Of a stretch of DNA of 62,114 nt, positions 2,091 through 57,447 are shown piece after piece. Within the stretch, counting starts at the first letter, position 1; each line of letters opens with the position of its first letter. The stretch is taken from positions 1 through 62,114 of the forward strand of contig JAPLRU010000045.1 in NCBI GenBank assembly GCA_026399025.1, given 5' to 3'. A program made the translations under genes and the position numbers. Source of the stretch: Methylobacter sp. (GTDB lineage: Bacteria > Pseudomonadota > Gammaproteobacteria > Methylococcales > Methylomonadaceae). Below the pieces are notes generated by a model. The model had not been told where the DNA came from and made no database searches. It saw only the letters and a program-made list of their open reading frames with translations.

Positions 2091-3332
2091 TTAAACAATA
2101 TGGCGATGCAATTTAGCCCGGCGTTTTTGCAGCCAACGGAGCAGCCCGGTAATGAACAATACCGGGCATGCCAAGCCGGATAAAAATACTAGAATCCGCC
2201 CGGTCCAACCGAAAGCCCTGCCGCTGTGTAGCGGCCATTGCCATTCGACAAAGGTTTGCCCGGCGGTAGCGCGGGTAGTGGGATCTTGCACTTTCAAAAT
2301 CGTGCCGTTGTATTGATCGATACTTACCTGCCGTTCCGACCAGAACCGGCTGAGTTCCTGCACATTGATGATGCTAATACGATAAACGCCTACCTCGCCC
2401 TCGGGAAAACTCAGCCAATCGATTCGACCTTCAGGATAACGGCTTCTAACAATGCTGAGTGCCAGTGCCAAATCAATCGGCTGTTTACCAACAGCCGGCA
2501 ATGAATGCGGGCTATCCATAAAACCTTGAGTACCGGGCGACAGCTGTTTGACCAGCGCCATGAATTGATCGGGCAAATTCATGTAAACGCCTGAAAGCAG
2601 CACCACGAATAAAACCGGGAATGTGTAGAATCCCGAGGTTTGATGCAAATCATGATTAAAGCGTTCGGCGCTGGCGCGGGATTTAATGGTCAAGACCCGC
2701 CGCCAGTTTCCCGTTAACGGCCACCACACAATCAGGCCGGTGAGCACCGAAAACAGCAGAATGACGCCCATGATGCCGACAATAATCCCCCCGATTTCGC
2801 CGGACAGCAGCGCAAAATGCAAACGGAACACAAACGGAATCAAAGCGCTGGGGAACATATCCTCGGCCTTTTTGATCAAATGTGTGCCCAATACTTGCGC
2901 TGTATAAGGATTGACGTGCACCTGCCATTCGTCTGTTTCATCCTCGACCGCAGTAGGAACGGCGAAGCCAAGCCTATAGGAGGATGCTGTGTCGGCAGGA
3001 TAATTGACAAACTTTAGCTTTGCCTGGGAAGGCATGGCCGCGATGGCGGCAGACTGAATTTCGGCAATAGAACGGTAAGCCGCTTCGCCTTGGGCCGATG
3101 CTTGTACGGTTCTTAAATCGGCGTTTAAAACGTTATCGATTTCTTCGTAAAATACCAGAATACTGCCGGTGACGCCGAACACCGTCAGGAAAAATCCCAG
3201 CAGCAAGCCCAGCCATAAATGCACGCTGAGCCAAAGTTTCCGGCGTTTTTTTAAGCGCAACAGGCGTTGTTGCTCGGCATCGGTACTATTGAATGCCTCA
3301 CCTTGCGGTAAATCAAGCGCAAATCGTTTCAT
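2091..3332 (-). CDS. PepSY-associated inner-membrane protein
   Basis: The 413-residue product belongs to the PepSY_TM family, often encoded beside TonB-dependent siderophore receptors. Some members are thought to reduce or release iron from siderophores in the periplasm. The first membrane helix is near residues 35-58 (LWLGLLLGFFLTVFGVTGSI). A PepSY-like periplasmic part with HVNPYTAQVLG follows, then helices near 190-210 and 240-260, a second PepSY region, and a final helix near 385-405 ending in a basic tail. The ATG at 3332 has GAGG five bases upstream and is preferred to a start five codons earlier. The location between two iron-type sigma/anti-sigma pairs supports an iron-uptake role. 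Confidence 0.88.
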   Translation of the reverse strand: MKRFALDLPQGEAFNSTDAEQQRLLRLKKRRKLWLSVHLWLGLLLGFFLTVFGVTGSILVFYEEIDNVLNADLRTVQASAQGEAAYRSIAEIQSAAIAAMPSQAKLKFVNYPADTASSYRLGFAVPTAVEDETDEWQVHVNPYTAQVLGTHLIKKAEDMFPSALIPFVFRLHFALLSGEIGGIIVGIMGVILLFSVLTGLIVWWPLTGNWRRVLTIKSRASAERFNHDLHQTSGFYTFPVLFVVLLSGVYMNLPDQFMALVKQLSPGTQGFMDSPHSLPAVGKQPIDLALALSIVRSRYPEGRIDWLSFPEGEVGVYRISIINVQELSRFWSERQVSIDQYNGTILKVQDPTTRATAGQTFVEWQWPLHSGRAFGWTGRILVFLSGLACPVLFITGLLRWLQKRRAKLHRHIV

Positions 3333-32745: not shown

Positions 32746-33564
32746 TTAATCTCTCAACAACTCGTTAATGCCGGTTTTGCTGCGGGTTCTTTCGTCGACT
32801 TGTTTGATGATGACGGCGCAGTACAGGCTGTATTTGCCGTCCGCAGAAGGCAGGTTGCCGGAGACGACGACCGATCCGGCCGGAATGCGGCCATAGCTGA
32901 TTTCGCCGGTCATGCGGTTGTAAATTTTGGTGCTTTGGCCGATATAAACGCCCATCGAAATGACCGAGCCTTGTTCGACGATAACGCCTTCGACGATTTC
33001 CGAGCGCGCGCCGATGAAGCAGTTGTCTTCGATGATGGTCGGACCGGCTTGCAAAGGTTCCAAAACGCCGCCGATGCCGACGCCGCCGGACAAATGCACG
33101 TTCTTGCCGATTTGCGCGCAAGAACCGACTGTAACCCAGGTATCGACCATCGTGCCGCTATCGACGTAGCCGCCGATGTTTACATAAGACGGCATCAAGA
33201 TAGCGCCCGGTGCGATGTAGGAACCGCGGCGGGCAACTGCGTTCGGTACGACGCGCACGCCGGCCTGGGCGAAATCTTCTTCGCTGTAATTGGCGAATTT
33301 GCTGTCGACTTTGTCGTAATAACGGGTGTTGCCGCCGTCCATTAGCCGGTTTTCGTTGATCCTGAACGACAATAATACGGCTTTTTTCAGCCATTGATTG
33401 GTGACCCATTCGCCGCTGGTTTTTTCGGCGACGCGGGCTTTGCCGCTGTCCAGCAGGTTGATTGCTTGTTCTACGGCTGAGCGCACTTCTGCGGAAACGG
33501 TTGCAGGCGTAATGTCGGCACGGTTTTCAAAAGCGTCGTTAATGGTAGTTTCTAGTTGTGACAT
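32746..33564 (-). CDS. dapD: Tetrahydrodipicolinate N-succinyltransferase
   Basis: A 272-residue enzyme that transfers succinyl from succinyl-CoA to tetrahydrodipicolinate. An N-terminal helical part is followed by a left-handed beta-helix of hexapeptide repeats ([33 protein letters not shown]). Length matches the trimeric family enzyme. It starts nine bases after the dapC stop codon in the leftward cluster. Confidence 0.98.
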
Positions 33565-45128: not shown

Positions 45129-45330
45129 ATTTTAATCAATCCTTTAGGTTTAGGAGGTCGGTAAAAAAACATCGCGCCGAATTATACAATGAGCCTGCAA
45201 AGTGCACCTAGCTTAATCAGAAACCGGATTGGCCGCAGTTCGGTCGTATTTTGCAATTTTTAAGATAATTTTGTCTAAATAATGGGGAAGTCTTTTTTGT
45301 GAGTTATTGCTCATTCACGGGCTATTCAAT

Positions 45331-45750
45331 TTAAAGAGGCAATAAATTAAAAAACGGTTTTGTGTTTTTCCAGCGATAAGTATGAAAATCACGTTTATCG
45401 GTGCTTAATATTCGACCATGCTCCAAATGTTCAGCCAACAAAACTAAAGACGCATCGGCAAAATCCATGGGTAAATCGGCATATTGTTGCATTAAAGCAA
45501 AAATTCTTTGCTTGTGATGAAGTGTATCTATTTGAAAAATAGTAAATATATCCTGCTGGTAGCTCTCTATAAAAGCAAGCATTAAGTGTTTTCCGCGCCG
45601 CTTAAGTAATAAATGACAAACTTCGGTGATTACAGGGTAAGTGGTGATAAGCGGCTCATTAATTTGGGCTAATGTTTTAACCGCGATTTGATGATGATTG
45701 TCATCAGGATTGACTAACGCCACCCAAAAACCGCTATCGGTGATGATCAT
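45331..45750 (-). CDS. PIN-domain toxin (VapC-like)
   Basis: A 139-residue PIN-domain protein, expected to be an RNase. The acidic metal ligands are Asp5 (IITDSGF), the Glu in VITEVCHLLL, the Asp in MDFADASLVLL and the Asp in LSTDKRDF. The start overlaps the antitoxin stop by four bases (ATGA), typical of a toxin-antitoxin pair. Confidence 0.9.
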   Translation of the reverse strand: MIITDSGFWVALVNPDDNHHQIAVKTLAQINEPLITTYPVITEVCHLLLKRRGKHLMLAFIESYQQDIFTIFQIDTLHHKQRIFALMQQYADLPMDFADASLVLLAEHLEHGRILSTDKRDFHTYRWKNTKPFFNLLPL

Positions 45751-45998
45751 GTTTTATCGCTCCAATCCAGATAGCTTTTGTAGTTTTCCGATAAATCGGA
45801 AACGTCCGGCATACCGCCTAAATAGCCTGTTTTTTGCAAAATAGCTAAAACTCTTTCGCCTTCCGTTAGGTTGCTTTTTTTACTGTAAAACTCATCAATG
45901 GCAAAAGCTATAAATTCAGAGGTGTTTATTTTTAATTTCTTTTCAAGCTCTAACAATTTCTCAAAGTGTTGGCTGTCGAGTTCGGCGGTAATTTGCAT
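45747..45998 (-). CDS. Antitoxin of the PIN toxin
   Basis: An 83-residue protein with a ribbon-helix-helix-like N-terminus (MQITAELDSQHFEKLLELEK) and an acidic C-terminal tail (DVSDLSENYKSYLDW), which would wrap around the toxin. It is upstream of, and overlaps, the PIN gene. Confidence 0.8.
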   Translation of the reverse strand: MQITAELDSQHFEKLLELEKKLKINTSEFIAFAIDEFYSKKSNLTEGERVLAILQKTGYLGGMPDVSDLSENYKSYLDWSDKT

Positions 45999-46392
45999 GG
46001 TTTAGCCCTCGTTTTTGTTTGCGGGTATTTTAACCCAAGTTTAGAAAACCTAGTGCTATATAGCATAATTGGTTGATTTTTAATTAAAAAAAACACGCCG
46101 TGTCTTGTGTATTTTTCCAAAATCAAGCTAGCTCATGCACAATACAATACCTGCCTCCAAGCTTTTCAGCACTTTTTCATAGGTGGGGCGACTGGGCACT
46201 TATTCTGAAGTAAAACCAGTCACCAAAACACCTACTCGAAAAGCCAACCAAGCAAATTCAACTGGATAATACCCGACAAATGTAGGGCGACATATTTGTA
46301 TATGTCGTGCGACATTTGTGGAGTATTTTTTTAAAAGAAAAAGGGGCAAAATTAAACCATTATCGATGAAATAGGCAGTAACGCTTTAATTC
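45999..46392. other. Divergent intergenic region at the left edge of the AT-rich island
   Basis: This region separates the toxin-antitoxin pair from the first island operon. Base composition becomes AT-rich here. The only feature recognised is the shared regulatory element at 46273-46328, listed separately. Confidence 0.5.
46273..46328 (+). promoter_or_regulatory. Shared regulatory element, copy 1
   Basis: CCGACAAATGT (46273-46283) is followed 24 bases later by a 32-base block (46297-46328) containing the dyad TGTCG-TG-CGACA and ending GTGGAGTATTT. The second copy at 52418-52472 has the same left box, and its 32-base block differs at one base. The element ends 64 bases before the start codon of the first operon. 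CGACA/TGTCG half-sites suggest an operator for a dimeric regulator, most likely the LuxR-type regulator encoded nearby. Confidence 0.75.
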
Positions 46393-47547
46393 ATGAAACA
46401 TAAATCTTATTACAGCAATTTTCTATCAAAATGGGCGAGCACTATGAATATGATGAGTAATAGCGCACTAGATGCAAGCATTAGTCAATTTAAGTTTCAG
46501 TATTATTGCTCGAAAATCGCAATAGGTTTTTTTGCCACAGTCTATTTATTGGCAGGACTGGGCATGTTAGTGGTTTCATTCTGGTTAGAAACCGAGGTGT
46601 TTTTAAGCCTACTGGGCGAAACCGCTTTTATTTCCTACTTGACCGCCGCAGGTCTGGAAGGTGCGAAGCTGGGTACTATCATCGTTTACGATTTTATTGA
46701 CCGTAAAAATGAAGCTGACCCTAATGTCGCTACCTTCAGCCATCAACTAAAAAACGCCGCGCTATTAATATTTAAACGCTTCTTCCAGTTGTCTTTGTTT
46801 CTAATTTCCATGCTTTGTGTAATGACTGTTATCTCCAAACAATTTGATAACCCAAAGCAGGCAGAAGTAAAGGAAAACGATTTGGCAAAGTCGCAAGCCA
46901 ATTATGACCGTAGTAAAGCCGAATTAATTACATCACAAGATAAAGAGCAACAACAACTAGCCGCCCAACAGGAAAAAGAACTGGCAAACATTACCGCCCG
47001 TTATCAGCCCTTGATAGACCAAGAATTAAATGGTTTTGAAACAGAGCGCCACAATATTGGACGTAACGGTGTGGCAATAGGTGGAAAGTATCAATCCCAT
47101 GAAAAAACCTTAGCCATACACAACGACAACTTGCAAAAAGAGTTAAATGCACAAAAAAGTTTAGCAGCAGAGCAAACCTATGAACAAAATCTCCGCCATC
47201 AAGAAAAACTTGCCGCACTTAGCAATCAATTTGCAACCGACCAAAACAACCTTGAACACCATAATTATGATGGCGATCAGCGCGTTGAGCATAAAAACAT
47301 TCATGCTGTAGTAAAAACCATGAACGCAGTGCTACCAATAGTTGGATTTAAACAGCAAATCCAGCCGATAGATTTTGTCGCCCTCTTTGCCCTGATGCTT
47401 TCCGCCATTATCGAATGCGCCATTTTTCTGGCTCTATCATCATTCGTAGCTGTATTTTTTCCTCATGATTTCACAGTCATTGAGCTGGAAATGCAGAAAG
47501 CGCAAAAAAAAACTTCACGCTATGGCTTAAGTCCAGAAACTACCTGA
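46393..47547 (+). CDS. Membrane protein with large coiled-coil domain
   Basis: A 384-residue protein I do not recognise. Membrane helices lie near residues 42-62, 70-90 and 125-147, followed by a charged coiled coil (about 155-295, rich in Gln, Glu, Lys and Ala) and a last helix near 325-350. The C-terminal tail is short and basic. The coiled coil lies between helices 3 and 4 and would be a large soluble domain on one face of the membrane. The start has no strong ribosome site, and an ATG at 46444 is an alternative. First gene of an operon preceded by the shared regulatory element. Confidence 0.75.
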   Translation: MKHKSYYSNFLSKWASTMNMMSNSALDASISQFKFQYYCSKIAIGFFATVYLLAGLGMLVVSFWLETEVFLSLLGETAFISYLTAAGLEGAKLGTIIVYDFIDRKNEADPNVATFSHQLKNAALLIFKRFFQLSLFLISMLCVMTVISKQFDNPKQAEVKENDLAKSQANYDRSKAELITSQDKEQQQLAAQQEKELANITARYQPLIDQELNGFETERHNIGRNGVAIGGKYQSHEKTLAIHNDNLQKELNAQKSLAAEQTYEQNLRHQEKLAALSNQFATDQNNLEHHNYDGDQRVEHKNIHAVVKTMNAVLPIVGFKQQIQPIDFVALFALMLSAIIECAIFLALSSFVAVFFPHDFTVIELEMQKAQKKTSRYGLSPETT

Positions 47548-47650
47548 ATGGATTAAAAACCCTGACCAAAAACCAAATGCAAGAACTACGAAAAATAAGC
47601 CAATCCTTAAAGAAAAGACATTTTTAACACAACAAACCGAAAGGTGAACC

Positions 47651-48193
47651 ATGAACGCACAAACCAAAAATACCCGCCTGGATGATTTTGAAAAACAAAC
47701 CAGCGATCTCGAAAACGAAATTACCCAAATGCCCAAAGCCATTAACGACAAGGGATTTCTTAGCACCTTATTCCACAATGACGAATACAAAAAAATTGCC
47801 GAAGCCCAACTCGCATTAGTCACCTGCCAAATTGAATACCGCCGCAAAGCCTTGGTGATGTATTCCAACCTGCGCATCGAACAACTGCGTAAATATTGTG
47901 AATCACAAGCCCAACGCGGCGGCATTGAACTCAATGTACAAACTGAAATGTACATCCGTGAACTGGTCTCAACACGCGAAGCTTGGGCGAATCGGGAAGT
48001 GGACAAGTTTTTGGAAAATTACGAAGCGGCGTATGACCGTATGGAAAAAATCCGTAGCCCGGTTGCCAAAGCCAAAGAAGAAGACCGTTTAAAAAAGACT
48101 CTGGAATCGTTTTATGACACCATTGAATACTTTAATGAAGAATTTAAAAAATCACTGACTTTTCAGGCGGGGCAAGTCCTGGTGATGGCATAA
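47651..48193 (+). CDS. Helical hypothetical protein
   Basis: A 180-residue, mostly helical, highly charged protein with no signal peptide and no membrane segment (DDFEKQTSDLENEITQMPKA, REAWANREVDKFLENYEAAY). AAGGTG precedes the ATG at the right distance. The family is not recognised. Its place between two membrane-protein genes suggests a cytosolic partner of the coiled-coil protein. Confidence 0.7.
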   Translation: MNAQTKNTRLDDFEKQTSDLENEITQMPKAINDKGFLSTLFHNDEYKKIAEAQLALVTCQIEYRRKALVMYSNLRIEQLRKYCESQAQRGGIELNVQTEMYIRELVSTREAWANREVDKFLENYEAAYDRMEKIRSPVAKAKEEDRLKKTLESFYDTIEYFNEEFKKSLTFQAGQVLVMA

Positions 48194-48223
48194 CCATAAT
48201 CCTAAAATATAGGTAATTGACAA

Positions 48224-48775
48224 ATGAACGAACCTTTGCGAACAAAAGAAGAAGAAAATAAAATTACAGAGTTTTACTCAGAAAGGCTGAAATTTCTTTG
48301 GGAACAATACAATAAAATAATAGGTTTTGGTATTTTATTATCAGGTATTACTTTAATTTTATTAGTTTCTGTCATACTTAATTCAGAGACAAGAGAAATA
48401 ATAAAAACTATTTGTGATAATGACAAAGGTAATTGTTTAAATCCTTTTTTTATAAAAACAGCAATATTGACTTTATTTATATCAACTGTTTGCTTTATAG
48501 GTTGCCGATGGTGTAGCCAAATACTAATGGAAAGGCAAATTTATGGTAAAGCGGATGATGCTTTGTATTACTTTGAGAATATTTTAGAAAACGAAACCGT
48601 TTTACCTTCTGCTTTAACACCCAAAAAATATACACCACAGCCAGTTGGTGAGCGTAGCGGCTTATTAAGAATGGTAGGGAATTTAAATGAACTGGCAAAA
48701 TGGACTGGGGTTTTATTAACTATTGTCGGTTGGATTTCTACACTTTGTTACCTGTTCCCACTTCTGGACATTTAA
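48224..48775 (+). CDS. Two-helix membrane protein
   Basis: A 183-residue, very AT-rich gene for an unrecognised membrane protein. Helices lie near residues 34-52 (GFGILLSGITLILLVSVIL) and 77-95 (IKTAILTLFISTVCFIGC), with a third near 158-178. A Cys pair (ICDNDKGNC) lies between the first two. It ends one base before the kinase start codon, so translation is probably coupled. Confidence 0.7.
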   Translation: MNEPLRTKEEENKITEFYSERLKFLWEQYNKIIGFGILLSGITLILLVSVILNSETREIIKTICDNDKGNCLNPFFIKTAILTLFISTVCFIGCRWCSQILMERQIYGKADDALYYFENILENETVLPSALTPKKYTPQPVGERSGLLRMVGNLNELAKWTGVLLTIVGWISTLCYLFPLLDI

Positions 48776-48776
48776 G

Positions 48777-51680
48777 ATGAATACTTCATTAGCTGGTAAA
48801 AAAATTGATAAAGATTATTTTAATGAAAATTTTGATAATTATGATTTGCGTGGAACTGATTTTTCTGGAGTAAATATAACAGGTACTAAATTTTGTGGGG
48901 CATTACTGGGGCGCACGTTAAAAACGACATATTGGTTATTAATCTTACAATCTATTTTACTATTAGCTGCAAGTTATTTTGTTGTTTATGGCAACGCTTT
49001 TGCTGCCTGGTTTATTGAAGTTCAACTCAAGGCATTTGATATTTACTCTGGTTTTAATTTATTTTTTATATTCGTCTTTTATGCCTTAGGTTTTTCATGT
49101 GCTATATTTTTGTCATTGAAATACAAAAAATGGGCTTTTCCAGCCTTTTTTTCTATTGTCCTTATTGTGGCAGCACTTGCAGCCGTAAAAGCTGAAAAAG
49201 TAGTCGAAGCTAAAGAACGTACTATTTCAACTTCGATTCAAGCGGATGTTCCTATAGGCGATGGTTTTGTACCTGCAATAAAGTCCGGGGATAAAACAGG
49301 CGTTGGCGCCAGAGCTGTTGATGGTCCAGCTGCCGTAGCAGGGGCTATCGTTGGCGCAGGGCTTGGGACACTGTTAGTTTTGGTGGTTGTAGCTTCAATT
49401 CTTGCTGGCTCAGGTGCAGATAGAGATACTAAAGTTCGCAATCTATTCATCATCGTATCTATAGTAGGTGCTGGTATTTCAGTATGGGGTTTTACTTACG
49501 CCATAGGGGATTCTATAGCCAAAGGTAAATTTGAAGATATTGATGCAGCAAGGGGCATGGCTGAAATAATTGCCTGGGCAGGCGCAGGTTCTGGTCTTGT
49601 ATTTATGCTATTCGGTTTGTATTTAGGCAACCGTGCTAGTAAAGACGAAGAATCAGAATTTCTATTTCTGCGTCATTTTGGTGTTGAGCTTAATGCTATA
49701 GGCGGCACTGAATTTGCCAATACGACGCTGCATGATTGTGATTTTAGTGGTGTTGATTTAAAGCATGTGCGTTTTATAAATGCAGGTTTTCAAGGTTGTA
49801 ACTTTCGAGATGCAAAAAATGCACATTTAGCCTCAACCCGTGACACTCCATTGGAATTTAAAAACGTTCGTGAGTTAGTGATTAATAGGAGATTACCAGA
49901 TAACAAATTTGATCGTTTGGATCTGAAAGCTAAAAATTTAAATCAGCAAGGGCTGGACTTTAGCAATTTGGATTTACGAAATGCTGATTTCTCAAATGCA
50001 AATATAAGTTTCGCTGATTTTACCAACTGTGATTTGCGTGGTGCTGATTTGAGCGAAGTTAATGCTATAGGTACACGCTTTAACTATTGCAAATTGACAG
50101 GGGCTTGTATTCAACACTGGAATATTGACAGCCGCACCGAATTGGATGGTATCGATTGTGATTTTGTTTACATCAACTTAAATCCAAGGTTGCGCAATTC
50201 CAATGGTGAGTTTGTGCGCAATCTTCCTATAAATAAAAATGATAGATTTGATCGCAACCCTCCAAATGGTAAATTTGCTATTGGCGATTTTACTAAAATA
50301 TATATGGAGATTGCTAATACCATTGACTTTATTGTTCCGAACCAAGCTGAACTCAATGCGTTAATAAGAGCAGTTGAAAATATTAATGTCGAAGCCAATA
50401 GTGAAAAAGTTACTGTTCAGGATATTCGATTCAATAAGAAAGAAGGAACAATTGTTGTAAAGCTCGAAGTCCCTCCAGAAATTGATCGTGAACAAATTTA
50501 TGATGAAGTAAATGAAGCTAAAGAAAAAATTATCCAACTGGAAAGGGAATTAAAGGCAAAAGAGATAGAGCTTAAAAAACAAGAGGACGATACAAAAAGT
50601 ATCTTACATGAAATTGGCAATAAAACTGTATCTATGGATTTTGCACTTGATAATATTAAGAATATTATTTTGCATAGCGACCCAGAAAAGGCTATTGAAA
50701 TTATTAAAGAAGCGATAATAGCCAATGAAACAACTCAAATATTCATTAAGGAGCTAGTGAATACTGGCATTAATAAAATTGAACTCAGTAATTTTGATGT
50801 ATGCTTGTTAATAGATGATATTATTAAAGAAAATACGCTACGTGCCAGTTATGCAAAGGTAAATATACACCCATTAGAAAATCGTAATTTTAATGCAATA
50901 GTCCACAGTAATCGCCTTTACTTAAAACGTGTTTTAACCGAACTTGTTACCAACGGCATTAAATATGCAGATACTTCAAAAGGCGAAGCGGCAATGGTTG
51001 CTTTTGACATTATTAGTCATGAGCATAGTGTGCATATTGACATTATTGACAACGGCATAGGTATTCCACTAAACGAACAAGAAAACATTTGGAAAGATGG
51101 ATTTCGAGTTAGTACAGAGCTAGATATTTATGGTTCAGGTTTAGGTTTGGCTTTCGTTAGAACCATAAATGAATTGAATAATCATCACATAAAACTAAAT
51201 TGTTCAAAACCTGGCGTAGGTACGCGCTTTAGTCTAAAACTGCCCAAGGGTGAAGTGATTGATGTTGAAAAGCCAGTGTTTACCGAATCGGATTATCCAT
51301 TATATGGACTCTATGTGCTTTTAATTGAAAATAATCAATTAGTAAAAGAATCTAGGATTTCTTTACTGGAAGCCAATGGCGCAGAATACGAAGTAGTCGC
51401 CTCAATAAAAGAGCTAAACGCATTATTACCAACGCTAGTTCGTTACCCTGATGTTGTAGTAACTAATTATTACTTACCTGATAACTGTACCGCTGTTGAT
51501 GTCATTACAGTATTAAAAACAGAGTATTCCCATGACACTCCAATCCTGATAGTAGCAAATGAAACCATCGACTTAAGCATTGATTTAAATTGTAAAAAAA
51601 TATTAATAAACCCAGTAGAAGACCAACAATTACTTACAGAAATTATTCGTCTTGATTCCGATCATCAGACTTCGGTTTAG
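48777..51680 (+). CDS. Membrane histidine kinase with pentapeptide repeats and pseudo-receiver
   Basis: A 967-residue protein of unusual build. A short pentapeptide block (NYDLRGTDFSGVNITGTKF) precedes about six membrane helices (residues 50-300). A second pentapeptide block follows (about 320-490; LDFSNLDLRNADFSNANISF), then a coiled coil (about 570-620), a HisKA-like segment with ILHEIGNK and an HATPase domain (ELVTNGIKYAD, DNGIGIP, GSGLGLAFVR). The C-terminal receiver-like domain (about 845-955) lacks all key residues: VDDE is IENN, the phospho-accepting Asp is Asn in VVVTNYYLPD, and the Lys is Asn in ILINPVE. The last 38 bases overlap the convergent regulator gene. Confidence 0.85.
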   Translation: MNTSLAGKKIDKDYFNENFDNYDLRGTDFSGVNITGTKFCGALLGRTLKTTYWLLILQSILLLAASYFVVYGNAFAAWFIEVQLKAFDIYSGFNLFFIFVFYALGFSCAIFLSLKYKKWAFPAFFSIVLIVAALAAVKAEKVVEAKERTISTSIQADVPIGDGFVPAIKSGDKTGVGARAVDGPAAVAGAIVGAGLGTLLVLVVVASILAGSGADRDTKVRNLFIIVSIVGAGISVWGFTYAIGDSIAKGKFEDIDAARGMAEIIAWAGAGSGLVFMLFGLYLGNRASKDEESEFLFLRHFGVELNAIGGTEFANTTLHDCDFSGVDLKHVRFINAGFQGCNFRDAKNAHLASTRDTPLEFKNVRELVINRRLPDNKFDRLDLKAKNLNQQGLDFSNLDLRNADFSNANISFADFTNCDLRGADLSEVNAIGTRFNYCKLTGACIQHWNIDSRTELDGIDCDFVYINLNPRLRNSNGEFVRNLPINKNDRFDRNPPNGKFAIGDFTKIYMEIANTIDFIVPNQAELNALIRAVENINVEANSEKVTVQDIRFNKKEGTIVVKLEVPPEIDREQIYDEVNEAKEKIIQLERELKAKEIELKKQEDDTKSILHEIGNKTVSMDFALDNIKNIILHSDPEKAIEIIKEAIIANETTQIFIKELVNTGINKIELSNFDVCLLIDDIIKENTLRASYAKVNIHPLENRNFNAIVHSNRLYLKRVLTELVTNGIKYADTSKGEAAMVAFDIISHEHSVHIDIIDNGIGIPLNEQENIWKDGFRVSTELDIYGSGLGLAFVRTINELNNHHIKLNCSKPGVGTRFSLKLPKGEVIDVEKPVFTESDYPLYGLYVLLIENNQLVKESRISLLEANGAEYEVVASIKELNALLPTLVRYPDVVVTNYYLPDNCTAVDVITVLKTEYSHDTPILIVANETIDLSIDLNCKKILINPVEDQQLLTEIIRLDSDHQTSV

Positions 51681-52389
51681 GTATATCAATACCTAACTGT
51701 GCAATTCTAACTATTAACTGACCTTTGTTTTTTACTTTAAATTTTTTGTATAAACTTGCACCATAGTCACGCGCCGTACCTTCACTTATAGCAGGATTCA
51801 TTTTACCTGCTATTACCTTATACAAATCACCGATACAAATATAATATAATATTTCTTTTTCTTTTGGCGTTATGTGAAAATCTTCTAGTTTATTGGTCAA
51901 TAAAGGTTTGTTTTCTTTAGCAACGATAGATAATGGTAAAAATACTCTATTTTTTTGTAGCACTGTTTCTAATGCTTCCTGCAATACATTTTTATCATTT
52001 ATTGTTTTTACAATATAACCTGATGCTCCTTCATCCAAACATTTCATAATTAATTCTTTATCTTCATGAAAAGATAACATAATAGACCTTACATTCAACT
52101 CATTTGAGCGAATATAGTTAAGTACATCTAAACCTGTTTTGTCACTATCATTTTTTTTGTCACTAAGTAAATCTGTCCTTAATAGCCCGTTTGTCGGGTG
52201 TTTTAATTCAATATCTAAAAACGCAAAATCAATATTTACACTTGAAAGTATATTAACAGCCTGCTCATAACTTGCGGCTTCGTGAATATTTACAGTTGGC
52301 ATTGACTTTTCCAGTATTGCCCTAAAACCTGCTCTGATTAATTCGACATCTTCCAGTAAAAGCACCTCTATATTTTGGGTGTCATTCAT
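51643..52389 (-). CDS. LuxR-type response regulator
   Basis: A 248-residue NarL/LuxR-type regulator. The receiver covers residues about 7-140 (LLLEDVELIRAGF, phospho-accepting Asp in FAFLDIEL, Lys in GYIVKTIND) and includes an insertion with KHPTNGLLRTDLL. The HTH is near 175-240 (ITPKEKEILYYICIGDLYKV, SEGTARDYGASLYKKF). It is convergent with the kinase gene and overlaps it by 38 bases. Its start lies 29 bases from the second copy of the shared regulatory element, so autoregulation and control of both operons is likely. Confidence 0.9.
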   Translation of the reverse strand: MNDTQNIEVLLLEDVELIRAGFRAILEKSMPTVNIHEAASYEQAVNILSSVNIDFAFLDIELKHPTNGLLRTDLLSDKKNDSDKTGLDVLNYIRSNELNVRSIMLSFHEDKELIMKCLDEGASGYIVKTINDKNVLQEALETVLQKNRVFLPLSIVAKENKPLLTNKLEDFHITPKEKEILYYICIGDLYKVIAGKMNPAISEGTARDYGASLYKKFKVKNKGQLIVRIAQLGIDIPKPKSDDRNQDE

Positions 52390-52417
52390 TTTATCCTCGC
52401 TATTTAAATTACATTAT

Positions 52418-52472
52418 CCGACAAATGTCGGGTAATTGTCTGTATGTGTCGTGCGACATTTGTGGAGTATTT
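52418..52472 (+). promoter_or_regulatory. Shared regulatory element, copy 2
   Basis: CCGACAAATGT (52418-52428) continues as CGACA-AA-TGTCG, a perfect dyad, followed by the 32-base block at 52441-52472 with TGTCG-TG-CGACA and GTGGAGTATTT. It ends 63 bases before the start codon of the small exported protein, almost the same spacing as copy 1. It lies between the divergent regulator gene and the peptide operon, so it can serve both. Confidence 0.75.
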
Positions 52473-52535
52473 ATTTTTTATAATGAAGTTCATAATTAAA
52501 TCGTCATTTTATTAATTATTTTTAAGGGGTAAGTT

Positions 52536-52871
52536 ATGAACAACAATTATAAAAAACTAACGTTTGTAAAAATAACAGCTCTGCTTTTGGCATTCACCTT
52601 TTCAAATCTAGTGTTTGCTGGTACATCAGAAATGCGTGCAACTACACCGGGGCAAGACTGCCTAAATAGAGGTAAGACAGTTGGTATTGTTGCAGCGGGT
52701 GCCGTTATTTTGGACTGTATATTCCTTGGTTGTGCTGTCACCTTAGCTTCTGCCGCTATGCTACCTGTAGAAATTCCTGTGGCAGCGGCTGTAATTGGAA
52801 CACCTATTGTTGCTGGTGCTTCTGGGTGTGCCGAAGGTGCTGTTGAAAATGTTATTGTAAACAGTCAATAG
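52536..52871 (+). CDS. Small exported Cys/Gly-rich protein
   Basis: A 111-residue protein with a signal peptide (about residues 1-28, ending NLVFA). The mature part is hydrophobic and rich in Ala, Gly and Val (VGIVAAGAVILDCIFLGCAV), with four Cys at 42, 61, 66 and 98. AGGGG precedes the ATG. It is the first gene of the radical SAM operon. It could be a second substrate, a membrane-active peptide precursor or an accessory factor; no family is recognised. Confidence 0.65.
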   Translation: MNNNYKKLTFVKITALLLAFTFSNLVFAGTSEMRATTPGQDCLNRGKTVGIVAAGAVILDCIFLGCAVTLASAAMLPVEIPVAAAVIGTPIVAGASGCAEGAVENVIVNSQ

Positions 52872-52943
52872 ATAAGACTAAATAACCGACAGCTGTACAG
52901 TATTGCATACAATTAGCCTATATAGACTAAGGAAAAAACTAAC

Positions 52944-54089
52944 ATGCTTAAGTATTTGATTATAAAAATAACAGGTAAATGCAACTTGGGTTGTGATTAT
53001 TGCTATTACATGACTGACCTTGCCGCCCAGTTCCGCAAGAGAGTTAAACAGGAAACTATTTTTCAGATTTATCAAAATTATGTGGATTATGCCAGAGAAA
53101 ACGCATTAAAGCAGGTTACTTTTTGTTGGCATGGCGGTGAGCCAACGCTACTAGGTAAAGATTTTTTTCGCTCGATTTTGGCGAAACAGTCCGACTATTT
53201 CAATGGTGATATTCAAGTACGAAACCTCATACAATCCAACGGAACACTGCTTGATGATGAATGGGCGGAGCTATTTAATCGCCATAACTTTTCTATCGGT
53301 ATTAGCATTGACGGTTCACCTATTTCTCACGATAGCGCACGTCCATATCATAATGGACGTGGCTCTTATACAGACGTTGTTAATAGCTTGCGCGTGTTGA
53401 CAAAAAATAACGTCCGTTTTGGCGCACTGACTGTCATTGATCCAAACCTGAATGGTCATGATGTTTTTGAACATCATTACGGCTTGGGTATCCGTGGTAT
53501 GGACTTCCTTTTACCAATTTTCACCAAAGAAAGCTTTGAAGAAATTTATGGTCACGATGCAGTAATTAAATTTGCCCGTTTTATGTGTGAACTTTTTGAT
53601 GCCTGGGTTGAAAAAGATGACCCCAGCGTTAGCATTGGTGGCTTAGAAAACCTGACTCGCTTGGTTGTCGGTGGTAAATCTAACCATTGCAACACTGCAA
53701 ACAAATGTGACCAGTACATAACTATTGAGCCGAACGGGGACGTGGGTATCTGTGAAAATGCGCGTGTCATTCCTAATCAAAATAACAACACAGTAGACAC
53801 TTATTTAACCAAAACGAATATTCACACTCACTCATTTGCTGAGATTGAAAAGGCGGTTGCCGTTAATTTTGCAACCCATGAATATAATCGTCGTGGCGAG
53901 ACTTGTCTTACTTGTTCGGTAAAAGATATTTGCAACTCAGGATGTTCCGTGCATCGCTACCGTAGCAGCGAAAATAATTTTCAAAATCCAAGTTTTTTCT
54001 GTGACCTGTATAAAACGGTCATCAGTCATATTGCTGACTTTTACCAATATGAAATCGGAGAATCTAAAACAGGAGGCGTTATGGTTTAA
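52944..54089 (+). CDS. Radical SAM/SPASM peptide-modifying enzyme
   Basis: A 381-residue radical SAM enzyme. The AdoMet cluster ligands are Cys13, Cys17 and Cys20 (CNLGCDYC), followed by WHGGEPTLL. The SPASM domain has a perfect C-x9-G-x4-C (Cys255, Cys270), then C-x2-C-x5-C-x3-C (Cys321, 324, 330, 334) and a last Cys near 353. This ligand pattern is shared by sulfatase-maturing enzymes and by peptide maturases such as those of the GrrM, XyeB and FxsB type. No sulfatase is nearby, whereas two short Trp-containing peptide genes follow at once, so a RiPP maturase forming crosslinks is favoured. Confidence 0.9.
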   Translation: MLKYLIIKITGKCNLGCDYCYYMTDLAAQFRKRVKQETIFQIYQNYVDYARENALKQVTFCWHGGEPTLLGKDFFRSILAKQSDYFNGDIQVRNLIQSNGTLLDDEWAELFNRHNFSIGISIDGSPISHDSARPYHNGRGSYTDVVNSLRVLTKNNVRFGALTVIDPNLNGHDVFEHHYGLGIRGMDFLLPIFTKESFEEIYGHDAVIKFARFMCELFDAWVEKDDPSVSIGGLENLTRLVVGGKSNHCNTANKCDQYITIEPNGDVGICENARVIPNQNNNTVDTYLTKTNIHTHSFAEIEKAVAVNFATHEYNRRGETCLTCSVKDICNSGCSVHRYRSSENNFQNPSFFCDLYKTVISHIADFYQYEIGESKTGGVMV

Positions 54090-54156
54090 ATTAATATGAG
54101 GTAAAAGCCAAAAAATAAATTTCCGAAAAATTCTTAATCCTTAAAAGGGCAATATC

Positions 54157-54372
54157 ATGAAAAAAATAACTGTAGGTACATTGGTTTTCGTTGGTAGTCT
54201 TGCAGCAGCTAATGTTGATGCTGCGGTCAATGCCGATCAAGTTCAAAACAATGTGTTACGCCGAATCGTTGGTGAAGCTCAACAATCAATGGTTATGGGT
54301 GATAAAAATGTAATCCAAGAATGGCAGCAAACCTGGGCGCAAGCTGTACCGCCTTCACCACTTGGCTGGTAG
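54157..54372 (+). CDS. Candidate radical-SAM-modified exported peptide precursor
   Basis: A 71-residue peptide with a Sec-type signal (KKITVGTLVFVGSLAAANVDA), a middle segment DQVQNNVLRRIVGEAQQ and a C-terminal EWQQTWAQAVPPSPLGW. The C-terminus holds W56-Q-Q58 and W60-A-Q62 and ends Gly-Trp. The paralogue just downstream keeps the middle segment and the W-x-Q pattern. AAAGGG precedes the start. A precursor role is inferred from size, position 67 bases after the radical SAM gene and the repeated aromatic motif. Confidence 0.75.
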   Translation: MKKITVGTLVFVGSLAAANVDAAVNADQVQNNVLRRIVGEAQQSMVMGDKNVIQEWQQTWAQAVPPSPLGW

Positions 54373-54378
54373 GTAGTA

Positions 54379-54409
54379 GGTTGGGCAACAGCTTTATCGT
54401 TGCCCAACC
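54379..54409 (+). promoter_or_regulatory. Hairpin between the two peptide genes
   Basis: GGTTGGGCAAC (54379-54389) pairs perfectly with GTTGCCCAACC (54399-54409) around a nine-base loop, directly after the first peptide gene. No T-run follows, so it may be an mRNA-stabilising or partial-termination hairpin that raises the first peptide's yield over downstream genes. Confidence 0.55.
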
Positions 54410-54433
54410 ATTGATTCTTAAAAAGGAAATATC

Positions 54434-54659
54434 ATGAAAAAAAATAAGTGTATGTACTCTGACTCTTGTTGGCACTCTTACAGCGGTTAATGTCTATGCC
54501 GAGGTTAAGGTTAATACCGATCAAATCCAAAATAAAGTATTACGTCGAATCGTTAGCGAAGTGCAGCAACCAGCAGTAAATGATGATAAGACCAAACCAC
54601 CAGAGTGGGAGCAAGTGCAAGAATACCAAGATTGGATGCAAGCTCACGATGGCTGGTAA
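54434..54659 (+). pseudogene. Second peptide precursor, frameshifted in an A8 tract
   Basis: AAGGA and an ATG are followed by eight A, where the first peptide gene has seven. As written, the frame stops after about 18 codons. With one A fewer it encodes 74 residues: signal KKISVCTLTLVGTLTAVNVY, middle DQIQNKVLRRIVSEVQQ and a C-terminus with W58-E-Q60, Y64-Q-D66, W67-M-Q69 and a final Gly-Trp. The conserved downstream frame suggests a recent loss, a phase-variable tract, transcriptional slippage or a sequencing error rather than old decay. Confidence 0.75.
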
Positions 54660-54809
54660 TTTGTAGATTGGGATGAGCTAGCGAACCGCCATAAAATGTT
54701 GAGATTCGTATCTCACCACAATTTACCGAGTTGTTTAACCTTTAAGCGACTGATATCAGCTTGCTTAATTTGTTTGTTAGCCTTTAACGAAATTTACCGA
54801 GAAACAGTC

Positions 54810-55880
54810 ATGCAGAAAAAACATGTCCTCGTAGTTTTTTTAGTATTCGCATTTCTTAGCGGTTGTAGTAGCGTACAACAACCCAAAAACGGCGATGCTA
54901 AAGCAGAATACGAATATGCTTTTCAACTTCAAACAGAAAAGCGTGATTACGCAAGTGCGCGTTATTGGTACGAGCTATCCGCTAAACATGGAAATAAGTG
55001 GGCGCAAAATAATTTAAATATGCCACCCTTTGCACCAGCTACTATAGAAATCGTTGATAATCAAACTACCGCTACATCACAATCAGGGGCATCGAATTCA
55101 CTGGCATTAGGCAACAAAGTTTTAGCACACAATGTCTCAGTTAAACTTAATAATATTGACGATTTAGGAATCGTATTTGTGCAAAATTCCGACGGAAATA
55201 TTAAGCAAGTTTCATTAGCTGAATGGTCTGCTCGTTTTCTTTCTGGATCTCCAGGTTCAGCCAAGGAATCATTAAATAAACACCTTAAACCTGGTCAAAA
55301 CCTAGTGTTTTTCATACTTCATAACAAGTCTTTTAATTATGGGTCTGGTAAATGGACTTACGATTTTAGCTTGATTGGTGATGGTACTGTTTTATTTCAT
55401 AAAGCTAATGGAAAAAATGGCGGCTCAGTTGGTATTCAAGATTGGGTAGCCTTTAGTGTTGAGAGTCGCACAGACGGTACATTTTTAATTGGACAAGCCT
55501 CGGAATATCAAGTTAGTAAAATATCGCCAAAAGTGGCTAACATAAATGCAGACTTGATAAAAAATCATGGGCATGAAAGTAGTTCAGATGTTGTCGCTGC
55601 TGTAATAGGTGTTGGGCTAGGCGCTGGAGCAGTGGCTTTAGCAGTATCCAGTGATTCTAGTAGTGATTCAAGCGATACGGTAAATAACGATAGAAACTAT
55701 TCTAACTATCTGACTCAAAATTCTAAAGATAAGAAAGAACAAGTAAAAGCTGATAAAAATAATGATTTTATTGAAACGGTAAAGCCTCAAGAACAGAAAG
55801 AAACTCCTAAACAAACCCCTTCAATACCAACACCTCCAATTAGCCCATTTTACGGCGACTGCCATGGTACAGATTGCTAA
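54810..55880 (+). CDS. Lipoprotein with Sel1-like repeat
   Basis: A 356-residue lipoprotein (lipobox AFLSGC, Cys near residue 19). A single Sel1/TPR-like repeat lies near residues 35-65 (YEYAFQLQTEKRDYASARYW). It is followed by a beta-rich region with a hydrophobic Gly/Ala stretch near 255-280 (VVAAVIGVGLGAGAVALAVS), a Ser/Asp linker, and a Lys/Glu/Pro-rich tail ending YGDCHGTDC. The ATG at 54810 fits the signal peptide, and the upstream extension does not. It is the last gene of the AT-rich island. The middle region is not recognised. Confidence 0.75.
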   Translation: MQKKHVLVVFLVFAFLSGCSSVQQPKNGDAKAEYEYAFQLQTEKRDYASARYWYELSAKHGNKWAQNNLNMPPFAPATIEIVDNQTTATSQSGASNSLALGNKVLAHNVSVKLNNIDDLGIVFVQNSDGNIKQVSLAEWSARFLSGSPGSAKESLNKHLKPGQNLVFFILHNKSFNYGSGKWTYDFSLIGDGTVLFHKANGKNGGSVGIQDWVAFSVESRTDGTFLIGQASEYQVSKISPKVANINADLIKNHGHESSSDVVAAVIGVGLGAGAVALAVSSDSSSDSSDTVNNDRNYSNYLTQNSKDKKEQVKADKNNDFIETVKPQEQKETPKQTPSIPTPPISPFYGDCHGTDC

Positions 55881-56006
55881 TAGGGATTGAAGTCCAACTG
55901 TACGAAAACAGACGTTAGCGCCCGGTACCGGTCAAATCTGGCGCTAATTCCAGCATCCAATATTCGCCAGCAATTTGCTCTTGCATCCTATAGATAGGCA
56001 CGCGGA

Positions 56007-56316: not shown

Positions 56317-56460
56317 TTTTAATGCCTCGTTAGTTTTAAGTGGAGAATGGCATATAAATTCATATCACCCTGCATCAGGTAACCGAACAGCACGATGATC
56401 ACTTAAAACATCCAAAGCCCCAGTGCTCAAGGCGCGCGGAACGCCTCAGATTAACACCCC

Positions 56461-57447
56461 CTAAAACGTAGACTTAATCCGCATCAACGTCCCGTCGCCA
56501 AACAGCATTTTTAACGCTTCCACCATCGCCGGATCGAACATAACGCCGGAATGCGCTTCAATATGCGTCAATGCTTCTTCCATCGGCCAAGGCTTTTTAT
56601 AAGGCCGTTGCGTCGTCAGTGCGTCGAAAACATCGGCAAGTTTTACAATACGCGCCGACAGCGGAATATCTTCGCCTTTTACGCGATTCGGATAACCGCT
56701 GCCGTCATAGTTTTCATGATGACCCGCGGAAATTTCCCGTGCAGTCTCGTAAAACGGGTTGTTGCCTAAAATGCGCACTCCGGCGAGCGGATGTTCGCGC
56801 ATAATATCCCACTCTTCGGCCGTCAATTTATCCGGTTTTTTCAAGATGGCGTCGGGCGTGGCCAGTTTGCCTATGTCATGCAACATGCTCATTAAGCCCA
56901 TGTGCGCGGCTGTGGCGCTATCGACGCCGATGGCGATTGCCAGCGCTTCGGTATAATGCTGGACACGGTATAGATGACTGGAGGTATCCTGATCTTTGCC
57001 CTCCGCCGCTAAACATAACATCACTACCGCGTCTTTATAGGCGGTTTCCAATTGATCGCGCGCGGTATCCAAATCGCGCTTTAATACCAACGCTTCCAAC
57101 GCCCGCACCACGGTCAAATTGAGTTCGGCCGGGTCCCAGGGCTTAGTGACATATTTGTAAATATGCGCATCATTCACACAGGTCATCAACGATTCAACGT
57201 CGGCATAACCGGTCAGTAAAATACGAATGGCGTTAGGCTGAATTTGCAAGGCATGGCTTAATACTTGGTCGCCGCTGATATTGGGCATGCGTTGGTCGCA
57301 AATAATTAAGTCGACCGGATGCATATTTAAAAACGCAATCCCTTCTTCGCCGCCATTGGCTGAGAACGTTTTATAACCTTTACGAAAGCTGCGCGTTAAT
57401 GTCGCCAGCACATCGGGATCATCATCAACCAGTAACAGCGTATGCAT
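56461..57447 (-). CDS. HD-GYP response regulator (c-di-GMP phosphodiesterase)
   Basis: A 328-residue regulator. The receiver covers residues 1-120 (LLLVDDDPDVLATLTRSF, phospho-accepting Asp in LIICDQRMPNISG, Lys in YKYVTKPWD). The HD-GYP domain covers about 140-320, with HDIGKLATPDAIL and HHENYDGSGYP, the signature of an active phosphodiesterase. It is the last gene of a four-gene leftward signalling operon, two bases after its kinase. Confidence 0.95.
   Translation of the reverse strand: MHTLLLVDDDPDVLATLTRSFRKGYKTFSANGGEEGIAFLNMHPVDLIICDQRMPNISGDQVLSHALQIQPNAIRILLTGYADVESLMTCVNDAHIYKYVTKPWDPAELNLTVVRALEALVLKRDLDTARDQLETAYKDAVVMLCLAAEGKDQDTSSHLYRVQHYTEALAIAIGVDSATAAHMGLMSMLHDIGKLATPDAILKKPDKLTAEEWDIMREHPLAGVRILGNNPFYETAREISAGHHENYDGSGYPNRVKGEDIPLSARIVKLADVFDALTTQRPYKKPWPMEEALTHIEAHSGVMFDPAMVEALKMLFGDGTLMRIKSTF

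Follow-up and report, generated by a model that had tools for sequence, protein, structure and literature searches.

A candidate triceptide-like RiPP system in Methylobacter: a radical SAM/SPASM enzyme beside short W-x-Q peptides

What is made by a radical S-adenosylmethionine (SAM) enzyme whose gene is followed by short, exported-looking peptides bearing Trp-x-Gln (W-x-Q) triads is the question raised by a locus of Methylobacter sp., contained in the 62,114 nucleotides of contig JAPLRU010000045.1 that were analysed here (the window) and that belong to a 5.23-Mb genome assembled into 138 contigs. The locus comprises the gene of a 381-residue radical SAM/SPASM peptide maturase (52944..54089, forward strand), a candidate W-x-Q cyclophane synthase, and two peptide-coding frames behind it, peptide 1 (54157..54372) and peptide 2 (54447..54659), both on the forward strand. 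With moderate confidence, we read enzyme and peptides as a minimal triceptide-like system of ribosomally synthesized and post-translationally modified peptides (RiPPs), in which, we infer, the W-x-Q triads are crosslinked into cyclophanes. On the present analysis a rare new variant of the triceptide-like systems appears to be the best classification, with W-x-Q crosslinking as the most likely chemistry.

The enzyme-peptide pair and its motif

The enzyme presents the radical SAM motif CxxxCxxC as C13/C17/C20, and its SPASM ligands are arranged as C255-x9-G265-x4-C270 and C321-x2-C324-x5-C330-x3-C334, the spacing that an earlier note on this DNA had reported, with C249 and C353 in addition; in the alignment, none of the eight auxiliary cysteines seen in sulfatase maturases is missing from the enzyme. 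Pfam places Radical_SAM at 60.1 bits (cut-off 29.5) and SPASM at 20.6 bits, just under its cut-off of 21.5, the ligand spacing being complete. Peptide 1 (71 residues) carries a signal-type N-terminus as judged by eye, a middle segment DQVQNNVLRRIVGEAQQ (54235..54285, forward strand) that is a candidate leader for recognition by the enzyme, the triads WQQ and WAQ and a Gly-Trp end, and it is matched by the peptide profile. Peptide 2, open over 70 residues in the conserved frame, shows a signal-type stretch, the middle segment, WEQ, YQD, WMQ and likewise a Gly-Trp end. The earlier note's outline of an enzyme followed by two related short peptides is borne out by the conserved middle segment common to both, and its tally of the four non-terminal Trp as WQQ, WAQ, WEQ and WMQ, plus one YQD, is correct. 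Two of its other claims stand in part: the Gly-Trp C-terminus is present on both window peptides but is not conserved in the related peptide described below, which ends in Gly-Cys, and the Sec-type signal ascribed to both peptides can be read by eye on peptide 1, whereas the frame of peptide 2 is not joined to a start codon in this assembly.

The sole relative recovered from a scan of genome contigs lies in a Methylovulum metagenome-assembled genome (L005), placed by contig search in the same family as the window genome; both organisms are methane-oxidising Gammaproteobacteria. The L005 enzyme is 71-72% identical to that of the window, and 60 bases behind its gene lies a 73-residue peptide (46% peptide identity) that repeats the N-terminal pattern and middle segment of the window peptides and has a tail QDWEQSWPQWSQ with three W-x-Q triads; 6782 bases of L005 were analysed, covering the downstream side for about 360 bases behind the peptide. 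Nine residues of the middle segment are invariant in the three peptides (Q28, N31, V33, R35, R36, I37, V38, E40 and Q42), and behind it six columns are invariant, with four of them accounted for by the paired W and Q in two triads, W56/Q58 and W60/Q62 in peptide 1 (54322..54342, forward strand). Conservation of W-x-Q across genomes, whose absence the earlier note had listed among the things that would speak against its proposal, is found in the only other genome having the enzyme, where the motif is kept, although the triads number 2, 2 and 3 and their spacing has changed.

Gln stands at +2 of all non-terminal Trp in the three peptides (7/7), with lower counts at other offsets (+1, 1/7; +3, 0/7; -2, 5/9), and makes up 12 of the 86 tail residues. 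When single tails were shuffled, the observed count was reached in 8424, 7851 and 181 of 200,000 trials; joint shuffles of all three tails matched it in 0 of 200,000, a figure that overstates independence since the peptides are homologous. Stronger than the shuffles are the retention of W and Q despite near-saturated synonymous sites (proportion of synonymous differences, pS, 0.775-0.81 between window and L005) and the share of W and Q among the invariant columns behind the middle segment (four of six). The third L005 triad, WPQ, aligns with YQD of peptide 2 (aromatic-x-polar) and with a gap in peptide 1, and YQD may therefore be a third reactive triad. All triads are disjoint and thus compatible with separate rings. 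Between the two enzymes, pS is 0.81 and the nonsynonymous proportion, pN, 0.18, and the substitution patterns of both enzyme and peptide fit purifying selection.

The pair is narrowly distributed. At an E value of 1e-40 the enzyme is found in 2 of 151 genomes of the family, and at 1e-50 in 1 of 369 genomes of the class and 2 of 311 of the order; across the phylum, 10 of 398 genomes match at 1e-40, namely its own at 856 bits and nine others, in 11 places, at a generic level of 143-155 bits. At E 0.01 the peptide profile has matches in 5 of the 237 family genomes, and the strong ones (E 7e-36 or better) are in the same two genomes as the enzyme; the matches in G580, G066 and G056 are partial (E 3.7e-4 to 0.009, one interrupted by stops), and these genomes were left out of the membership. 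Strong enzyme and peptide matches occur only together and, with a second genome behind it, the pair is, on sequence grounds, real.

Placement of the enzyme and the competing readings

Scores against NCBIfam were compared among the 25 best of 67 matched families for the window enzyme and the 25 best of 74 for its L005 relative, and both enzymes lie under the cut-off of every family among these. For the window enzyme the bits and cut-offs are 130/450 for XyeB, 115/310 for GrrM, 185/370 for FxsB, 204/445 for YhhB, 116/425 for AmcB, 189/450 for DynA and 128/650 for DarE. In a tree of 26 rows, which has several long branches and from which XyeB, DynA, DarE and AmcB were left out, the window and L005 enzymes form their own clade (support 100/99, stem 1.79). 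It is separate from the 12-row clade containing the annotated sulfatase maturases (99/97), from the 9-row clade of FxsB, YhhB and related enzymes (97/96), with a weak pull to the FxsB side (61/69), and from the three-row GrrM branch (100/100); the nearest row by path beyond the pair is the enzyme of locus L013.

At the level of residues the enzyme is mixed: beside the auxiliary cysteines of sulfatase-maturase type it has H63-GGEP and the C-terminal tail HRYR..FQNPSFFC..H, which resemble the FxsB/YhhB rows, position 63 being Gln in 11 of the 12 sulfatase-maturase-clade rows. Directly behind C270 both enzymes of the pair have Glu271, a Glu also seen in the three GrrM rows and in L033, while Asp occupies this position in 12/12 sulfatase-maturase-clade rows, in four FxsB/YhhB rows and in 4k37; the Asp behind the third SPASM cysteine is presumably the catalytic Asp of the anaerobic sulfatase maturase. 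In the PDB, two sequence relatives and no others reach E 1e-10, namely the sulfatase-maturating enzyme (4k36/4k37) and ChlB (9gm3); a reference cited in PMC12636437 bears a title that describes ChlB as a multiple cyclophane synthase. A profile search at 1e-5 adds the two weaker relatives 5wgg and 6efn. Structure prediction from the two-row alignment was unusable (mean predicted local distance difference test score, pLDDT, 40.1).

The carbon-carbon bond that defines triceptides joins the C-beta of the third residue of a triad to the aromatic ring of the first, with 2 Da lost per triad, and the partners named in the available part of PMC11002830 are Trp-Arg/Asn/Asp, Phe-Asn/Ser, Tyr-Asp/Arg and His-Ala/Arg. 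Several observations weigh against reading the pair as a W-x-Q cyclophane system. Gln is not named among the partners in that part of PMC11002830, and only two loci are known for the enzyme-peptide pair. The highest NCBIfam model for the enzyme is TIGR03942, the sulfatase maturase, at 253 bits against a cut-off of 349 (244 bits for the L005 relative). At the columns of C249, C255, C270 and C334 there is no Cys in 7/7 FxsB, YhhB and GrrM rows, so that cyclophane chemistry is not simply transferable from these enzymes. The N-termini, with their MKK or MNK start, hydrophobic stretch and V-x-A, were read by eye, and the start of peptide 2, a possibly broken gene, is out of frame. Around the locus, a scan of open reading frames (ORFs) and proteins that took in part of the window's ORFs brought up no recognisable dedicated protease or transporter.

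The state of peptide 2 turns on an ATG and a run of eight A (54434..54446, forward strand). Translation from the ATG at 54434 through the A run (54437-54444) yields 18 residues before it meets a stop. The conserved frame opens immediately after the TGA at 54435, with AAA AAA ATA before the conserved part, and runs to a stop at 54657-54659. In this assembly, no ATG, GTG or TTG lies in frame between that TGA and the conserved part; the corresponding run of peptide 1 is seven A long. Given this offset between start codon and conserved frame, peptide 2 would be either recently broken, read via slippage at the A run, begun at an unusual codon or mis-assembled. That it is a decaying copy is a substantial possibility, though one we lean away from, and it is compatible with the other readings, since peptide 1 and L005 are their basis. 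The offset at the A8 run and the missing start codon speak for decay; beyond the offset the frame is undamaged and every motif is there, peptide 1 and the enzyme are likewise intact, and A-run slippage or an assembly error would explain the offset equally well. The comparison of peptide 2 with peptide 1 (pS 0.51, pN 0.27 over 63 codons) fits purifying selection over most of the history of peptide 2.

The enzyme could also mature the same peptides by a different reaction, either a crosslink other than Trp to Gln at i/i+2 (for example Trp-Trp or an ether) or a change at one residue such as oxidation or epimerisation. We consider this unlikely, but it deserves weight: the enzyme lies outside the sampled cyclophane-maturase clades and retains the full SPASM ligand set that is absent there, and radical SAM crosslinks are diverse, the available part of PMC9055067 naming among others the Thr-Gln C-O bond of rotapeptide and a bond between Lys and Trp. 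Set against it is the invariant Gln at +2, which is what an i/i+2 reaction would select, though the frequent Gln at -2 of Trp is unexplained by this test. Much less probable is that the peptides have nothing to do with the enzyme, being small secreted proteins such as envelope stress peptides, and that they share W-x-Q through common descent only. This gains from the fact that just three sequences are known, all homologous, with two triads common by descent, and it loses from the preservation of the gene pair across two genera despite the near-saturated synonymous sites, from the confinement of strong enzyme and peptide matches to the same two genomes and from the extra L005 triad, which is again W-x-Q. 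Hardly credible is an anaerobic sulfatase maturase adjoining the peptides by chance, for which the top-scoring model and the complete sulfatase-maturase-type cysteines can be cited, and which is disfavoured by score (another enzyme of the genome, L002, passes the TIGR03942 cut-off at 408 bits), by clade, by Glu271 and by the neighbours. Sulfatases consistently beside homologues of the enzyme had been named in the earlier note as grounds against its own proposal. A search for the sulfatase-type motif [CS]xPxR over the 62-kb window and 6782 bases of L005 gave none in a sulfatase-sized frame; the single match falls in a 122-residue stop-to-stop frame at 33161-33526.

W-x-Q cyclophane formation, the reading that we prefer, is favoured by the recurrence of the pair in L005, by the joint confinement of enzyme and peptide to two genomes, by the Gln at +2, by the substitution pattern, by ChlB among the solved relatives, by the residues that resemble FxsB/YhhB and by the precursor layouts at two GrrM loci and at L013 (see below), and a course of events can be proposed for it. 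The conserved middle segment of the precursor would be bound by the enzyme in the cytoplasm, where the 5'-deoxyadenosyl radical would abstract hydrogen from the beta carbon of Gln at position +2; the resulting carbon radical would attack the indole ring of Trp, and an auxiliary cluster would take up the electron. Every triad would in this way close to a three-residue cyclophane with a loss of 2 Da, so that peptide 1 would gain two rings, peptide 2 two or, with YQD reacting as well, three, and the L005 peptide three. The modified peptide would then exit via the Sec route and be cleaved by signal peptidase after V-x-A, the remaining leader may undergo trimming in the periplasm, and the product could be an antibacterial or a signalling peptide, both being possible. 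The sensor kinase, response regulator and shared promoter-like element near the locus (see below) would fit regulated production. A bolder proposal, doubtful when taken as a whole, is a new triceptide class of Sec-exported peptides with Trp-to-Gln three-residue cyclophanes, made by a separate radical SAM lineage that has kept the complete SPASM domain of sulfatase-maturase type and so perhaps stands between sulfatase maturases and Cys-depleted cyclophane synthases, with the second precursor switched by slippage at the A8 run.

Surroundings of the locus

Guanine-plus-cytosine (GC) content is 30-43% over about 45.2 to 56.0 kb of the window and 43-52% beyond 56.0 kb. Similarity to members of the same genus ends at 45219-45222 in 3/3 pssA loci examined and starts at 56458-56475 in 7/7 HD-GYP loci examined, all of these loci extending only about 1500 bases past the gene, and in G110 the two flanks of the stretch are far apart, at 33 kb and 2918 kb of contig 1. 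Since same-genus similarity stops at both edges and the G110 flanks are so separated, the low-GC stretch of 45200-56000, without counterpart at the same-genus flanks examined, is probably a strain-specific insertion or rearrangement. Near its left edge, at 45331-45998, a PIN-domain protein and a small upstream partner gene form a toxin-antitoxin-like arrangement.

Two transcription units in this stretch are preceded by a 67-nt promoter-like element with arms CGACAAATGT / ACATTTGTGG, at 46297-46363 and, upstream of the enzyme, at 52441..52507 (forward strand), the copies being 78% identical over 67 nt and a candidate common promoter or regulator site. With three or fewer mismatches, its 21-nt core occurs twice in the genome, both times inside the window, and has 0 matches in three other genomes; the backward control of the core has 1 match in the window's own genome. 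The element may be a candidate operator of the response regulator encoded at 51643-52389, which has a receiver and a GerE/LuxR-type domain. The sensor kinase gene at 48723-51680, whose product combines pentapeptide repeats with a histidine-kinase ATPase domain and weakly matches a receiver, converges on the regulator gene with an overlap of 38 bases.

An exported-looking ORF of 111 residues (52536..52871, forward strand) ends 72 nt upstream of the enzyme gene and is possibly co-transcribed with it; among 237 family genomes it is found in its own and in one weak match (E 6e-4, internal stops). By ORF list and blastn, the L005 locus has no counterpart of this ORF, of the sensor kinase or of the regulator. 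A lipoprotein-like ORF of the window has no match in G146 or four same-genus genomes, the one match in six being the window's own. The earlier note had taken 52536-55880 as the system, a span drawn too widely, as it includes the 111-residue and lipoprotein-like ORFs, neither of which is in the conserved pair. Between peptides 1 and 2 lies a stem-loop with an 11-bp stem and no U-run (54379..54409, forward strand); the fold of 54368-54425 has an energy of -20.7 kcal/mol (z -4.68), equalled by 0 of 200 shuffles.

Mobile carriage and a defence role were considered and rejected. The best match to the enzyme in phage or plasmid records is about 30% identical, none of 339 pattern matches in viral contigs was confirmed as a close relative, peptide 1 has no match in plasmids, and PADLOC gives only weak viperin-type matches of the radical SAM core. 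No paper on W-x-Q radical SAM peptides or on this locus is among the literature matches listed, which comprise titles and abstract starts in open-licence PMC text.

Comparison with known systems

Anaerobic sulfatase-maturating enzymes share the eight SPASM cysteines of the window enzyme and give it its highest profile score, and they differ from it in the family cut-off and clade, neither of which includes it, and in the Asp that it replaces by Glu behind C270; the DNA scanned around it has no sulfatase motif in a sulfatase-sized frame. An enzyme with all eight cysteines that made cyclophanes would be a point of comparison for the relationship between cyclophane synthases and sulfatase maturases. 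Bufferins and other MNIO-modified RiPPs have a Sec-type signal on the precursor, as the window peptides would on the reading by eye, but they are made by another enzyme class on mostly Cys-containing motifs, whereas the tails of peptides 1 and 2 contain no Cys and that of L005 contains two. The available part of PMC12452194 describes a Sec signal as highly unusual on a RiPP precursor of bacteria, and states that export must follow modification, a problem that would apply to the window peptides too; the use of the general Sec route by RiPPs, rare according to that source, would gain a further case.

Closer in layout are the GrrM/OscB systems of Pseudomonadota. Beside the GrrM enzyme of Phaeobacter (L034), an ORF of 114 residues starts with a hydrophobic stretch that closes in SAANA and goes on to a segment RLETIRQSV and the triads WLN, WSN and WNN, and the L051 locus has a 94-residue ORF (1171-1455) with a signal-like start, RLSAIRTAY and eight F-x-N units, so that a signal-like start, a short Arg-containing segment and an aromatic-x-Asn tail occur together at 2 of the 3 GrrM loci with a recognisable precursor candidate. 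The third, from Nostoc (L030), has WDN and WND with no evident signal; annotated neighbours at a fourth GrrM locus, L029, include no precursor candidate, and the YhhB and Haa precursors show no signal by eye. The layout is therefore not unprecedented, and the statement in the earlier note that the signal peptide and the W-x-Q motif fit no family it could name was too strong as a claim of having no known match. Glu replaces the sulfatase-maturase Asp in the 3 aligned GrrM rows (L051 stands outside the alignment), as in the window enzyme. The differences are a score of 115 bits against a cut-off of 310, Asn there and Gln here, and a precursor that lies upstream there and downstream here; between the window peptides and the L034 precursor, the pair compared, there is no detectable homology (hhalign probability 1.3%), the layout alone being alike.

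At L013, a 76-residue ORF (2719-2949, reverse strand) upstream of the radical SAM/SPASM enzyme has WVN and FAK near its end, terminates in GWVNSFAKWCLRF and is a candidate triceptide-type precursor; the filtered lists of small ORFs near L020 and L024 contained no recognisable one. Elsewhere among the loci compared, a Rhizobium plasmid (L023, 2450-4785) encodes a radical SAM protein adjoining an HEXXH peptide-modification protein, and a Gloeobacter plasmid (L033, 2186-4398) carries in succession a small ORF, a radical SAM protein and an ATP-binding cassette (ABC) transporter gene.

The triceptide-type enzymes themselves (XncB, OscB/GrrM, MscB, FxsB, YxdB, HaaB, YhhB and ChlB) are likewise radical SAM/SPASM proteins beside a short precursor with aromatic-x-residue motifs, and both traits of the type, the enzyme next to its precursor and conserved triads in the precursor tail (7/7 W-x-Q), are seen at the present locus. 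FxsB and YhhB resemble the window enzyme in radical SAM core and C-terminal tail, and the reaction would be alike. The window enzyme departs from the triceptide enzymes in its separate clade, in scores under the XyeB, GrrM, FxsB and YhhB cut-offs and in its full SPASM cysteine set, and its precursor departs from theirs in having Gln as the third residue. If W-x-Q is crosslinked, this small pair of one enzyme and one 71-residue peptide would extend the known residue range of the three-residue cyclophane enzymes to Gln.

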